Source: Chloroflexota bacterium (lineage in GTDB: Bacteria > Chloroflexota > Anaerolineae > JAAEKA01). Taken from it: DNA of 48,545 nucleotides. How positions within the stretch are numbered: position 1 is the first letter of the stretch; each line of letters opens with the position of its first letter. A model generated the notes under the pieces. It saw nothing but the letters and a program-made list of their open reading frames with translations. It made no database searches and was not told the DNA's origin. The stretch is taken from NCBI GenBank assembly GCA_034717495.1, contig JAYELL010000020.1, forward strand, positions 1 through 48,545, written 5' to 3'. Positions 7,328 through 48,475 of the stretch are shown piece by piece. The translations under genes and the position numbers were made by a program.

Positions 7328-8827
7328 TTAGGAAAGGAAGGTTCGTTTCCAATCCAACGGTCGTTTCCAGGCTGAACCGGATCGACCATCTTGATCGGTC
7401 AGTATGGTTGCCTCTCGTTCACGCTCATGGACGACCAGCGCAGCCGCTATGGCAGCTGCCAGTTCCAACTCCGGCCTTTCGACATAGGTGACGTCGAAGC
7501 GGTCCTCCAGAAAACTTGTATCATAGGTGCCCCACTGGAAGAGAGCACTATCCATTACCTGCCGGTGAAAGGGAAGTGAAGTTGTTACTCCGCCTATCCG
7601 GTATTCACGCAGGGCCCGCCGCATGCGCAGGATTGCTTCGGCCCGGGTTTCGCCCCAGACGATCAGCTTGGCGATCATGGGATCGTAGTACAGGCTTATC
7701 TCAAATCCCTCGTAGACGCCACTCTCGACCCGAACACCGGGTCCCGTAGGCTCCTGCAGGGTTGTCACCACCCCGCCCGATGGCATGAAGTTGTTGATGG
7801 GGTCCTCGGCCGTGATGCGGCACTCGATCGACCACCCCTTGGCTTGAATATCCTCCTGGCGCCAGCGCAATCTACGCCCATCGGCGATGGCCAGCATTTC
7901 CTTGACGATATCCACGCCGGTCACCATTTCTGTCACAGGATGCTCTACCTGGAGCCGGGTGTTCATTTCCAGGAAGTAGAACTCGCCCTGCTGGTCAACC
8001 AGGAACTCCAGCGTACCAGCATTGACATAATCGACCGCACGGGCAGCTTTGATTGCGACTTCACCCATGGCAGCCCGCAGTTTCTCATCTACAGCGACCG
8101 AGGGGGATTCTTCGATCAGTTTCTGGTGGCGGCGCTGGATCGAACACTCTCTTTCGCCCAGATGTATGACGTTTCCCTGGCTGTCAGCCAGAATCTGGAT
8201 CTCGATGTGGCGCGGGCGTTCGATGCGTTTCTCCAGGTAGACGGTGTCGTCGCCGAAGGCGCTGAGGGCCTCTCGGCGGGCGGCGCCCAGCGCGGTTTCC
8301 AGTTCGTTCTCCGAGCCTATGAGTCGCATGCCCTTGCCACCACCGCCGGCGGACGCCTTGATCAACAGCGGATAGCCGATTCTCTGTGCTTCCGCGGCAA
8401 TTTCGCCATCGCGCAGTCCTTCGGCCGAGCCGGGCACGACTGGTACGCCTGCTGCCATCATCGTCCGGCGGGCGGTGACCTTGTCTCCCATACGACGCAT
8501 GGCATCTGGTGTCGGTCCAATGAAAGCGAGTCCCTCGTCAATGCAGGTCTGAGCGAAGTCGGCATTTTCGGCCAAAAAGCCGTAGCCCGGGTGGATGGCA
8601 TCGGCACCAGATCGCCGGGCAATATCGATGATGCGGTCGATACGCAGGTAACTCTCGCTTGAAGGCGCAGGTCCCAGCCGGTAAGCCTCGCGGGCATAAC
8701 GCACATGCAGCGCGTCCCGATCGGCGTCTGAGTAGACAGCTACGCCCTGCAGGCCGCGTTCCTCACAGGCTCTCAGGATTCGTACAGCGATTTCGCCACG
8801 ATTGGCGACCAGTATCTTCTTGAACAT
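7328..8827 (-). CDS. Biotin carboxylase subunit of acyl-CoA (propionyl-CoA) carboxylase
   Basis: The 499-residue ATP-grasp enzyme carboxylates biotin on the carrier protein using ATP and bicarbonate. Domains in order: biotin carboxylase N-domain (MFKKILVANRGEIAVRILRACEE), ATP-grasp with the Gly-rich loop ASAGGGGKGMR, HIEIQILAD and ERECSIQRRHQKLIEE, catalytic EMNTRLQVEHPVTE, and the biotin carboxylase C-domain (SIECRITAEDP...LREYRIGGVTTSLPF). The last 50 residues go slightly beyond AccC length, as in PccA-type proteins. An AGGA ribosome-binding site precedes the ATG. The carrier gene follows 14 bp later. The neighbouring methylmalonyl-CoA genes favour propionyl-CoA over acetyl-CoA as the substrate. 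Confidence 0.95.
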   Translation of the reverse strand: MFKKILVANRGEIAVRILRACEERGLQGVAVYSDADRDALHVRYAREAYRLGPAPSSESYLRIDRIIDIARRSGADAIHPGYGFLAENADFAQTCIDEGLAFIGPTPDAMRRMGDKVTARRTMMAAGVPVVPGSAEGLRDGEIAAEAQRIGYPLLIKASAGGGGKGMRLIGSENELETALGAARREALSAFGDDTVYLEKRIERPRHIEIQILADSQGNVIHLGERECSIQRRHQKLIEESPSVAVDEKLRAAMGEVAIKAARAVDYVNAGTLEFLVDQQGEFYFLEMNTRLQVEHPVTEMVTGVDIVKEMLAIADGRRLRWRQEDIQAKGWSIECRITAEDPINNFMPSGGVVTTLQEPTGPGVRVESGVYEGFEISLYYDPMIAKLIVWGETRAEAILRMRRALREYRIGGVTTSLPFHRQVMDSALFQWGTYDTSFLEDRFDVTYVERPELELAAAIAAALVVHEREREATILTDQDGRSGSAWKRPLDWKRTFLS

Positions 8828-8842
8828 CGTTTCTTCCTAAGC

Positions 8843-9070
8843 TGGACAAGCCAGAGGAACGCTGATTACGCAGACCTCCGGCGCAGAGGTCGCCGATCTT
8901 CTAGCTCACGCACCGCCTAGCTAGCTCACGCACCGTATGCTGACGTCACGCACCGCTTGCTGCCTCTCGGCACGCCTGCTGGCGTAGCGTGCTGGCGTGC
9001 TGATCTTTTTTGATCTTGTTTGGATTGATCAGCGAGTATCAGCGTTCATCTAGCGTCATCTGCGGTTACG
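8843..9070. repeat. Interspersed repeat family 1 (copy A), interrupted by a family 2 element
   Basis: The sequence from CTGGACAAGCCAGAGGAACG (8843) to TCTGCGGTTACG recurs at 24443-24522 and 32709-32832 in the other orientation or rearranged. In those copies the run ...GATCTTTTTT...GATTGATC is continuous. Here it is split after GATCTT (8895-8900) by 101 bp and resumes with GATCTT (9002-9007). No coding capacity is seen. It fills most of the gap between biotin carboxylase and the hypothetical gene. Confidence 0.75.
8901..9001. mobile_element. Family 2 repeat inserted in family 1 repeat, flanked by GATCTT duplications
   Basis: A 101-bp GC-rich element begins CTAGCTCACGCACCG and ends GCGTGCTGGCGTGCT. 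It is flanked on both sides by GATCTT, which occurs once at the matching place in the uninterrupted family 1 copies. This looks like insertion of a small non-autonomous element with a 6-bp target duplication. Related copies occur at about 20837-20935, 48124-48210 and 48414-48475. Internal words CACGCACCG and GCGTG can pair, giving hairpin potential. Confidence 0.6.
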
Positions 9071-9142: not shown

Positions 9143-9721
9143 TTATGATCGCACCTGGCCCGATATCTCCATGGTCACAAAAACCAGGTCGGGCGCAAAA
9201 GACTGGGGTGGCAGGCCGTGGAACCAGCGCAGGGTTCCAAAGGCTGGGCTAACAGGATTCAAGTAGAGGCGCTGAATGTCGACGATGGTACCGCTCGTGG
9301 GTTTCCACAGCAGGGTGCCAGGTTCCAGCGCCAGCAGGCCAGCCAGGGGCGCCGTTCCCATGATCCAGTTGCCCTGGGTCAGGTTGTATGGCGTGGTGAT
9401 TTCACCTGAGTCCAGATCGGGATCAATCAGATCCATGCGCAGCGGCACGCCGCAATCGACCAGGACCTGGCAGACGGTAGTTCCCTGGCTTTGCCAGGTG
9501 TCGAATTGATCTACCCGACCACTGAATACGCAACGATCCAGGCTAAAGGGTTTCAAAATGGATCGCCCCGGCGAGTCCCGCCGAATCCATCCACAGCCAT
9601 CCTCCTGGTTGGTCGTTAACAGTCCGGCATCAAACTGCGCGCTGATGGGCAGACCGACCATCAATCCAGAGCGATCGTTGGCAGCATATTGGTTGTCAGA
9701 AAGAGAGAATGTGATTTGCAT
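9143..9721 (-). CDS. Hypothetical protein, function unknown
   Basis: 192 residues from an ATG at 9721, with no signal peptide or transmembrane segment. The composition suggests a mostly beta-strand, soluble globular protein, with four Cys residues (CGW, RCV, VCQ, DCG) and many aromatic residues. The phrases YNLTQGNWIMGTAPLAGLL and IQRLYLNPVSPAFGTLRWF look like exposed loops between strands. It is 53 bp downstream of the carboxyltransferase gene on the same strand and could be its second cistron. No family is recognised, and a metabolic role is not inferred. Confidence 0.65.
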   Translation of the reverse strand: MQITFSLSDNQYAANDRSGLMVGLPISAQFDAGLLTTNQEDGCGWIRRDSPGRSILKPFSLDRCVFSGRVDQFDTWQSQGTTVCQVLVDCGVPLRMDLIDPDLDSGEITTPYNLTQGNWIMGTAPLAGLLALEPGTLLWKPTSGTIVDIQRLYLNPVSPAFGTLRWFHGLPPQSFAPDLVFVTMEISGQVRS

Positions 9722-20606: not shown

Positions 20607-21041
20607 TAAGGACTCGACTATCTGCCAGAACTGATCCGCATAGCGATCAACAGTGCCGTGCAAGTTCCTTGATGATATGCTGCCCAAAAAATGCGCCCGG
20701 TCACTTGGTTTACAAACAATGGACACATGGATTTCTGAACCCATTGTTCAACTGCTCAAACATAAGGCCGGGGAATGATTATCTCATGTTACGTACCTGC
20801 TCTACGCAGCTAGCTCTCACCTCTCGGTGGCCTTACCTAGCTAGCTCACGCACCGTCTGCTGACGTCTCGCATCGCTTGCTAGCGTCACGGTACGCCTGC
20901 TGCCGTGGCGTGCTGACGTGGCGTGCTGGCGAGGCTCAGGATGTCATTTGACTCCTGTTTTTGCCAGGTGCGTAGCTCCAGTGATCAAGGCAGGAAGCAA
21001 CTCCTGGATTGCGCTGATTGACTGCTCAATCCCTGGCTTCA
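20607..21041. other. Intergenic region dominated by family 2 repeats
   Basis: No gene is supported in these 435 bases. 20791-20836 is a degenerate unit and 20837-20935 a better copy of the CTAGCTCACGCACCG family 2 repeat. A hairpin TCCCTG/CAGGGA (21030-21048) followed by TTTTT (21052-21056) could end plus-strand transcripts from the feo operon, though it overlaps the 3' end of the convergent gene. Confidence 0.5.
20837..20935. repeat. Family 2 interspersed repeat, copy 2
   Basis: It begins CTAGCTAGCTCACGCACCG, continues with CTGCTGACGT words, and ends GCGTGCTGGCGAGG, closely matching the 101-bp insert at 8901-9001. It is followed by CTCAGGATG, which also borders the copy near 48200. Confidence 0.65.
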
Positions 21042-24161: not shown

Positions 24162-24561
24162 TCTTTGCTCCAAAAGGGTATGGTCGGTGTCAGAAGCGCT
24201 GGTGCAAGGCGCGGGAACCAGGTAACCAGGTGACATTGTAACCCAGGTTCTCGGTTTGCGAAAAAGGGTCCACTTGCTGCAACCGTGTGCCCCCGGCGAT
24301 GGAACAGGTAGCGTGTGGGTCGTGGAGCGACTGTGATTTGCTGAACCAGACAGAATCGGGTATTCTAGGGTGCTTCCCGTTAGAAATCAGGTTACTACTC
24401 AGGCTCGGCAGGAAATGGAAAAACCGGGATTGCCTGAGCAGTTACCGCAGATCAATCAAAAAAAGATCAGCGATCTCTGCGCCGAAGGTCTGCGTAATCA
24501 GCGTTCCTCTGGCTTGTCCAGGTTGGGAAAGGGCAGCCGATTCAAATGGGAGTGATGTATC
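24162..24561. other. Divergent intergenic region with a family 1 repeat
   Basis: The region separates the ABC exporter operon (minus) from the Yip1/TAXI operon (plus). 24443-24522 is a copy of repeat family 1. No further gene is supported; short frames here have no protein-like features. Confidence 0.5.
24443..24522. repeat. Family 1 interspersed repeat, copy B (uninterrupted)
   Basis: It reads as the reverse complement of 8843-8900 plus the start of the right arm at 9002 onward: ...GATCAATCAAAAAAAGATC...GCGCCGAAGGTCTGCG...CTCTGGCTTGTCCAG. The A-run next to GATC is continuous here, giving the empty-site version of the locus at 8.9 kb. Confidence 0.7.
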
Positions 24562-32339: not shown

Positions 32340-32708
32340 CTATCCGCCCCATTATAGGCGATCTTTGCGATTTTTTCAAGTCAGGTGAATTCGCTTCAGT
32401 AATTCCAACTGTGCTGCGGAGTCCAGGCTCTGCGTAGCCATTTTCCAAAGAAACTTCCGTTATGTCCTGTTTCTTGTAATACGAATGATCCTGAAACATG
32501 AAGGATAACGGAGGAGCCGCTAAGGAGTCGCGGTTATGTCATACTGAGGGTTGCCGAAGCATCTCAAGGTTCCTTGCAGTATGAATGATCCTGAAGATCA
32601 CGGCACATTCCATATGCAGGGGAGTCGAGGCTGTACGAAGTCCCCATTTTTCTGGGTTAGCCGGGTTGATCTTGCGCAAACCCAGCTGATAAGCCGCCTG
32701 GACCCTAA

Positions 32709-32832
32709 CCTGGACAAGCCAGAGGAACGCTGATAACGCAGACCTGAATGAACCGCAGATGACGCTGATGAACGCAGATAATCGCAGATCAATCGAAAAA
32801 AGATCAGCGACCTCTGCGCCGAAGGTTTGCGG
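32709..32832. repeat. Family 1 interspersed repeat, copy C (rearranged, uninterrupted)
   Basis: It starts CCTGGACAAGCCAGAGGAAC as in copy A, then runs in inverted order through GAACGCAGATAATCGCAG to GATCAATCGAAAAAAGATC and GCGCCGAAGGTTTGCG. The reverse complement matches copy A both before the insert (GCGCAGAGGTCGC) and after it (TCAGCGT, TCATCTGCGGTT). Confidence 0.7.
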
Positions 32833-47954: not shown

Positions 47955-47971
47955 TGGATAACTCCGGGTAG

Positions 47972-48115
47972 ACAATGAAACAAGGAAACAAGTAGACAAG
48001 TAGACAAGTAGACAAGGAAACAAGTAGACAAGGAAACAAGTAGACAAGTAGACAAGTAGACAAGTAGACAAGTAGACAAGGAAACAAGTAGACAAGGAAA
48101 CAAGTAGACAAGTAT
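47972..48115. repeat. 18-unit 8-bp tandem repeat upstream of the phosphotransferase-like gene
   Basis: Eighteen consecutive 8-bp units: twelve ACAAGTAG, four ACAAGGAA, with edge variants ACAATGAA (first) and ACAAGTAT (last). It begins 17 bp upstream of the GTG start at 47954, so it lies in the leader or promoter. The minus-strand reading is open in all three frames (LVYLSTC-type octapeptides), which creates misleading N-terminal extensions. Confidence 0.9.
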
Positions 48116-48123
48116 GGATCCCC

Positions 48124-48210
48124 GCGTACCTCCTGGTACATCTACTACCTCTCGGTCCGCCTGCTAGCTCACGCACCGCCCGCTGGCGTCGTGCCTCGCG
48201 GCGGCCTACT
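48124..48210. repeat. Family 2 interspersed repeat, copy 3
   Basis: GCGTACCTCC...CTACCTCTCGGTCC resembles the degenerate left part of copy 2, followed by GCTAGCTCACGCACCGCC, GCTGGCGTCGTG and GCGGCGGCC. CTCAGGATG follows as in copy 2. Confidence 0.6.
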
Positions 48211-48413: not shown

Positions 48414-48475
48414 ACTAACTAGCTTGCTAGCTCACGCACCGCCTGCTGGCGTGGCGTGCTGGCGTGCCGTGGTGT
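48414..48475. repeat. Family 2 interspersed repeat, copy 4
   Basis: TAACTAGCTTGCTAGCTCAC, then GCACCGCCTGCTGGCGTGGC and GTGCTGGCGTGCCGTGG. This is the cleanest match to the core of the insert at 8901-9001. Confidence 0.65.

Follow-up and report, generated by a model that had tools for sequence, protein, structure and literature searches.

The window analyzed here, that is, the whole stretch of 48,545 bp, is the entire contig C20 of a 5.0-Mb Chloroflexota genome that consists of 120 contigs. Between the biotin carboxylase gene (7328-8827; the best protein match, with 81% identity, comes from a Caldilineales MAG, which makes a Caldilineales-like member of the Chloroflexota the probable source) and an open frame at 9143-9721, it contains a composite of two non-coding, intergenic and, as far as tested, lineage-specific repeats, one of which has invaded the other. 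The inner repeat (family 2) is bounded by two copies of GATCTT separated by exactly 101 bp, at positions that the first-pass annotation gave correctly to the base (Table 1). As that annotation also noticed, two more copies of the outer repeat (family 1) in the window run through GATCTTTTTT without interruption, and the insert recurs in part at three other places. One of the two insert-free copies is rearranged, its right part being inverted relative to the left one, with the ends CGCAGACCT / AGGTTTGCG, as if a segment had been flipped. None of the 10 window proteins scanned is a transposase, in agreement with the earlier remark that there is none nearby.

Table 1 Features of the composite at 8.9 kb and related repeats in the window.
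Feature	Coordinates	Strand	Remarks
Family-1 left module, ends in the first GATCTT (8895-8900)	8834..8900	+	93% match to the reverse complement of 24463-24529; 106 other cores
Family-2 insert, 101 bp, variable array	8901..9001	+	20-bp period here; TRF period 20 at 8905-8966
Second GATCTT	9002..9007	+	Proposed target duplication, or native decamer unit
Family-1 right part, GATCTTTTTTGATCTTGTTTGGATTGATCAGCG..., with the third GATCTT (9012-9017)	9002..9070	+	Matches the C83 and C6 composites; G036/G031 weakly
Family-1 copy without insert	24437..24530	-	
Family-1 copy without insert, internally rearranged	32704..32832	.	Left 42 nt direct, remainder inverted
Family-2 array, separate intergenic region, no GATCTT site	20821..20921	+	
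Family-2 array fragment	48163..48199	+	
Family-2 array fragment	48426..48467	+	

Both families are present far above chance genome-wide. BLAST searches of the source genome, each scoring 40 candidates, produced at least 51 matches for family 1 (E≤0.01) and at least 53 for family 2; the family-1 core pattern yielded 88 matches compared to 0 for the reversed control, and the family-2 word CTCACGCACCG yielded 82 compared to 2. The total of family-1 cores varies with the filter (107, 106, 103, or 101 insert-free plus 4 composite ones), and includes a few cores that are likely duplicated at contig ends (L228/L230, for example) and a few loose matches. The family-2 arrays number 66 or 54, depending on the clustering; 6 of the 54 were dropped (Ns or contig ends), leaving 48 for flank comparison. 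Many of the arrays are located at contig ends (C10, C24, C31, C44, C94, C96, C116 and others), so that the copy number of family 2 is underestimated, the assembly being broken by these repeats. Neither family was detected at E≤0.001 in five genomes of the same taxonomic family, and the search of relatives, all from other genera, produced only two short, weak matches outside the source genome, both to the right part of family 1 (G036/G031); hence the apparent lineage specificity. The upstream region of the Caldilineales relative (L080) likewise gave no BLAST match to either family, and an Rfam scan of the window produced 0 matches at the gathering threshold. A foreign origin was considered and set aside: no plasmid or phage match was obtained, no exact family-2 22-mer occurred in genome or viral contig collections, and no exact family-1 27-mer in viral contigs, with the proviso that records close to this genome may be missing from these databases.

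The full-genome search for both families recovered the left junction GATCTT|CTAGCTCACG at three further loci, on contigs C83, C6 and C97, so that the composite is genuine and occurs outside the window as well. An 81-101-bp segment of family 2 is found at one fixed base after the family-1 GATCTT at four loci, the junction base and orientation being identical in all four, against 101 cores without the insert that were compared. The insert is 101 bp long in C20 and 81 bp in both C83 and C6 (the C83 composite is present twice around an N gap and was counted once); in C97, the right end is present further on, the family-2 insert being interrupted by a 166-bp element. The left-hand hexamer is always GATCTT, and the right-hand one is GATCTT in C20 and C97 (6/6 identical positions), GATCCT in C83 (5/6) and ACTCTT in C6 (4/6).

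The first-pass annotation took the paired GATCTT for a 6-bp target duplication. However, GATCTT belongs to a 10-bp unit that is natively repeated in tandem in family 1: the arrangement GATCTT-N4-GATCTT, with no insert, occurs in 19 of the 102 uninterrupted copies, and GATCTT-N4-GATCTTGTTTGGAT was found at 7 further genomic sites. This accounts for the third GATCTT in the window copy and implies that gain and loss of units at the junction is normal. We reconstructed the empty site of each composite and performed an anchored comparison against the 101 insert-free cores. When the insert and one GATCTT are removed, as the duplication model prescribes, the nearest empty core is 0, 1, 1 and 1 edits away (C20, C83, C6 and C97, respectively), and the empty C20 locus would read CGCCGATCTTTTTTGATCTTGTTTGG; the best spacer model without duplication requires 1, 1, 2 and 1 edits, and a plain insertion, with neither duplication nor spacer, 5, 5, 4 and 5. 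The slightly better fit to the empty sites makes the 6-bp duplication reading somewhat preferable and suggestive but, because GATCTT itself repeats natively in family 1, the signature is not diagnostic.

Under the spacer model, there was no target duplication; a piece of family 2 instead interrupted the 4 nt that separate two native GATCTT units, or took their place, for example, at CT^CT in GATCTTCTCTGATCTTG. Insert-free two-unit copies do exist (GATCTTCTCTGATCTTGTTTGG twice among them), the C20, C83 and C97 sites are at most one edit away from such copies over the 18 bases compared, and the insert starts with CT and ends with CT, fitting both halves of CTCT. Nevertheless, this model requires three successive units in the window copy, and none of the copies in the insert-free census has three ending in GATCTTGTTTGG; furthermore, for none of the four composites is its nearest fit better than that of the duplication model. 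We consider this scenario improbable, albeit the best placed among the alternatives to the one we favor.

The case for a mobile element depends on what family 2 is. Its arrays are mosaic, combining words such as TAGCTCAC, GCACCGCC, TGCTGGCG and TACCTCACGGTACGCC in an order and number that vary from array to array; of 65 spacings between the main words, 40 are multiples of 8 (about 8 expected if the residues were even). Among paralogous arrays with the same flanks (L202, L253 and L204, for example), the number of 24-bp units varies from one to five, in a minisatellite-like manner. Outside the four composites, the arrays start and stop at different words, and 44 of the 48 arrays with usable flanks lie outside family 1, away from the GATCTT site. 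No clear terminal inverted repeat was found when the ends of the insert (CTAGCTCACG / GGCGTGCT) were compared by eye. As a single strand, the insert folds no better than shuffled sequences (z=0.31 and -0.09 for the two strands), and family 1 (z=-1.37 and -1.30) and another family-2 array (-1.30) fold slightly better at most; accordingly, no stable palindromic hairpin was found in the tested copies of either family by comparison to shuffles. Judging from these sequence features, family 2 is not a discrete element but a set of arrays that vary, are built from 8-bp-based words and have no fixed ends. The window harbors further arrays with 8-bp units, at 47968-48114 and 1272-1362 (of the ACAAGTAG/ACAAGGAA and GCGTCCCC types), and three different octamer-based repeats, family 2 included, were observed in this genome.

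Comparison of the flanks of the family-2 copies revealed no consistent flanking duplication in the other arrays. The mean shared flank word across the 48 arrays is 4.27, compared to 3.60 with permuted flanks, and 7 of the 48 share at least 6 bp, compared to 1.5 expected from permutation; one of the seven is the window copy, several belong to octamer arrays, and the strongest sharing falls within octamer arrays of GCGTCCCC, in which it is to be expected. The array L185, which has GCGTTC on both sides, was examined as a possible second case, which would have made 6-bp duplication a general feature of family 2; this idea was then dropped: its sister copy L261 has GCGTTC on the left but GCGTCC on the right, and many arrays carry GCGTCC after TGCTGGCG irrespective of what flanks them on the left. 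In two family-2-type arrays, L025 and L035, GATCTC directly precedes CTAG, near the composite junction GATCTT|CTAG; this resemblance is not explained away and could reflect a target preference. The two findings that the first-pass annotation named beforehand as evidence against its own reading, other family-2 copies lacking a flanking duplication and GATCTT being ordinary repeat sequence, are largely what the genome presents, except that the ordinary unit belongs to family 1, not to family 2.

A dedicated transposase linked to either family was sought among the window proteins and next to the three Y1 transposase genes of the genome, with no such link detected. The fetched flanks of all three Y1 genes (up to ~1.5 kb per side, shorter at a contig end) contain no match to family 1 or family 2, and a RAYT/REP link for these repeats was rejected on this ground. 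Two of the Y1 (RAYT-like) genes, L160 and L161 (on C119 and C1), are flanked by palindromic repeats of their own, such as GCCGAGTAAACTCGGAC and GGTCGACCTGCGTCGACC, and probably represent a REP/RAYT pair in Chloroflexota.

The same genome also contains a proper MITE-like element, which can serve as a positive control for mobile insertion. This is the 166-bp element (L007/L322, C97:63887-64052) that interrupts the family-2 insert in C97, with CTAG on both sides and the inverted ends GTTCTGTTGACATTT. A second copy (L323, C52:6444-6605) has the ends GTTCTGTTGATATTT and AAATGTCAACAGAAC, again with CTAG on both sides; a third copy (L324) lies at the end of C66, and related ends were found at C84 and C109. 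The C97 locus thus shows a third level of nesting, a MITE-like element in family 2 in family 1. The family-2 insert resembles a MITE in being short, non-coding, dispersed and flanked by a direct repeat, but the resident element has fixed ends, inverted repeats and CTAG duplications, whereas family 2 has neither fixed ends nor a clear terminal inverted repeat.

These features bear on transposition or site-specific integration, whereby a non-autonomous element of 81-101 bp, moved in trans by an unlinked enzyme, would have inserted independently four times after GATCTT with a 6-bp duplication. The exact or one-edit empty sites reconstructed for all four composites, the L185 flanks and the near-identity of the inserts (1-2 differences in 81), the flanks of which vary more in two of the three pairs, are compatible with this possibility. 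Conversely, the variable ends, the occurrence of most arrays away from such a site, the L261 flanks, the folding of the insert and the imperfect right-hand hexamers in C83 and C6 all argue against it, and four insertions at one base, with none elsewhere at GATCTT, would require extreme specificity. We regard transposition as unlikely, somewhat more so than the splitting of a spacer. Less probable still is the specific version in which an array segment with neither a transposase nor a hairpin would be mobilized in trans to the single point after GATCTT, duplicating 6 bp, a site-specific non-autonomous element docking on a dispersed repeat. Of the original proposition that a short element moves in this genome, what stands is the nesting of family 2 in family 1 at a precise point, in 4 of about 105 cores; that this is direct evidence of mobility is not supported.

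The relationships among the composites can be addressed through the words they share. AGTATCAGCG and GTTTGGATTGATCAGCG are confined to the C20 and C6 composites among the fetched family-1 loci, and an extra 20-mer is common to C20 and C97; together with the identical left junction, this points to common descent, and the four composites may derive from a single event. Their left modules differ in subtype and their right flanks are of three types, which would also be expected from independent insertions. In comparisons of insert and flank divergence for three pairs (C97, with its interrupted insert, is left out), Fisher's test gave p=0.08, 1.0 and 0.05; the uniform inserts beside varied flanks in two of the three pairs weakly favor recent insertions. 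The flanks of family 1, however, appear to be partly reshuffled in general, because some variants about 10 bp apart are nearly independent in insert-free copies (N4 paired with the right side, p=0.09, or with the CGC/CGT position, p=0.2) while other marker pairs remain linked (CGC/CGT with the right side, p<0.0005; the left end with the right side, p=0.007).

The scenario that we consider the most likely, giving it about an even chance, is that a fragment of family 2 was captured at a recombination-prone GATCTT unit and that the composite subsequently spread and was reshuffled. The capture of an array segment at a family-1 GATCTT decamer would have occurred once or very few times, ancestrally, by break repair or template switching that left GATCTT on both sides; the composite would then have spread and exchanged parts with other copies of family 1, a repeat that seems to be reshuffled in general. 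Family 2, in turn, would be a minisatellite-like array of 8-bp words that grows, shrinks and enters other repeats by recombination. In favor of this scenario are the junction and words shared by the composites, the native GATCTT units, the near independence of some family-1 variants, the variability of the family-2 arrays and the lack of matches next to the Y1 genes. Speaking against it are the differing left subtypes and right flanks of the composites, the uniformity of the inserts in two of three pairs, the slightly better fit of the duplication model, the family-1 markers that are still linked, and the GATCTC of L025 and L035. The reverse direction, with an ancestral composite and insert-free copies arising by deletion between the GATCTT repeats, is made conceivable by the flanking direct repeats and the variable unit number but is very unlikely, given that no insert is present in 101 of the 105 cores, the right sides of which are diverse, and that the near-identical inserts are probably young. 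An assembly artefact of a repeat-rich metagenome bin, which the many arrays at contig ends and the doubled C83 composite might suggest, is more improbable yet, considering that the same junction is found in four contigs with different flanking sequences and that C20 and C97 are continuous through it.

Comparison of these repeats with known systems shows partial similarities. Cyanobacterial STRR are short tandemly repeated repetitive arrays of heptamers; like these, family 2 forms intergenic arrays of short degenerate words that expand and contract, but the word length is based on 8 bp. Cyanobacterial small dispersed repeats (SDR) are about 20-30 bp long and have defined ends, unlike the array-like family 2, with its variable length and no fixed ends. 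The SDRs (Elhai et al. 2008) are reportedly very short, intergenic and transposase-less, located inside other repeats, with empty copies taken as evidence. The composite is similar in that a short repeat with no transposase of its own resides within another repeat, of which empty copies exist. The dispersed extragenic location of both families and the presence of Y1 transposase genes in the genome recall REP sequences and REPINs, the latter being described as REP doublets near RAYT genes (PMC3116915); the differences are that families 1 and 2 are not adjacent to the Y1 genes and fold no better, or only slightly better, than shuffles. CGTC repeats have been described that also seem to lack a dedicated transposase (PMC3733652). 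A limited literature search for published work on such repeats in Chloroflexi found none, which is a weak negative.

A native tandem unit can easily mimic a target duplication, and reconstruction of the empty site, followed by comparison with all empty copies, offers a concrete test. Should mobility of family 2 prove true, the composite would provide a Chloroflexota example of how tiny, transposase-less intergenic repeats spread.
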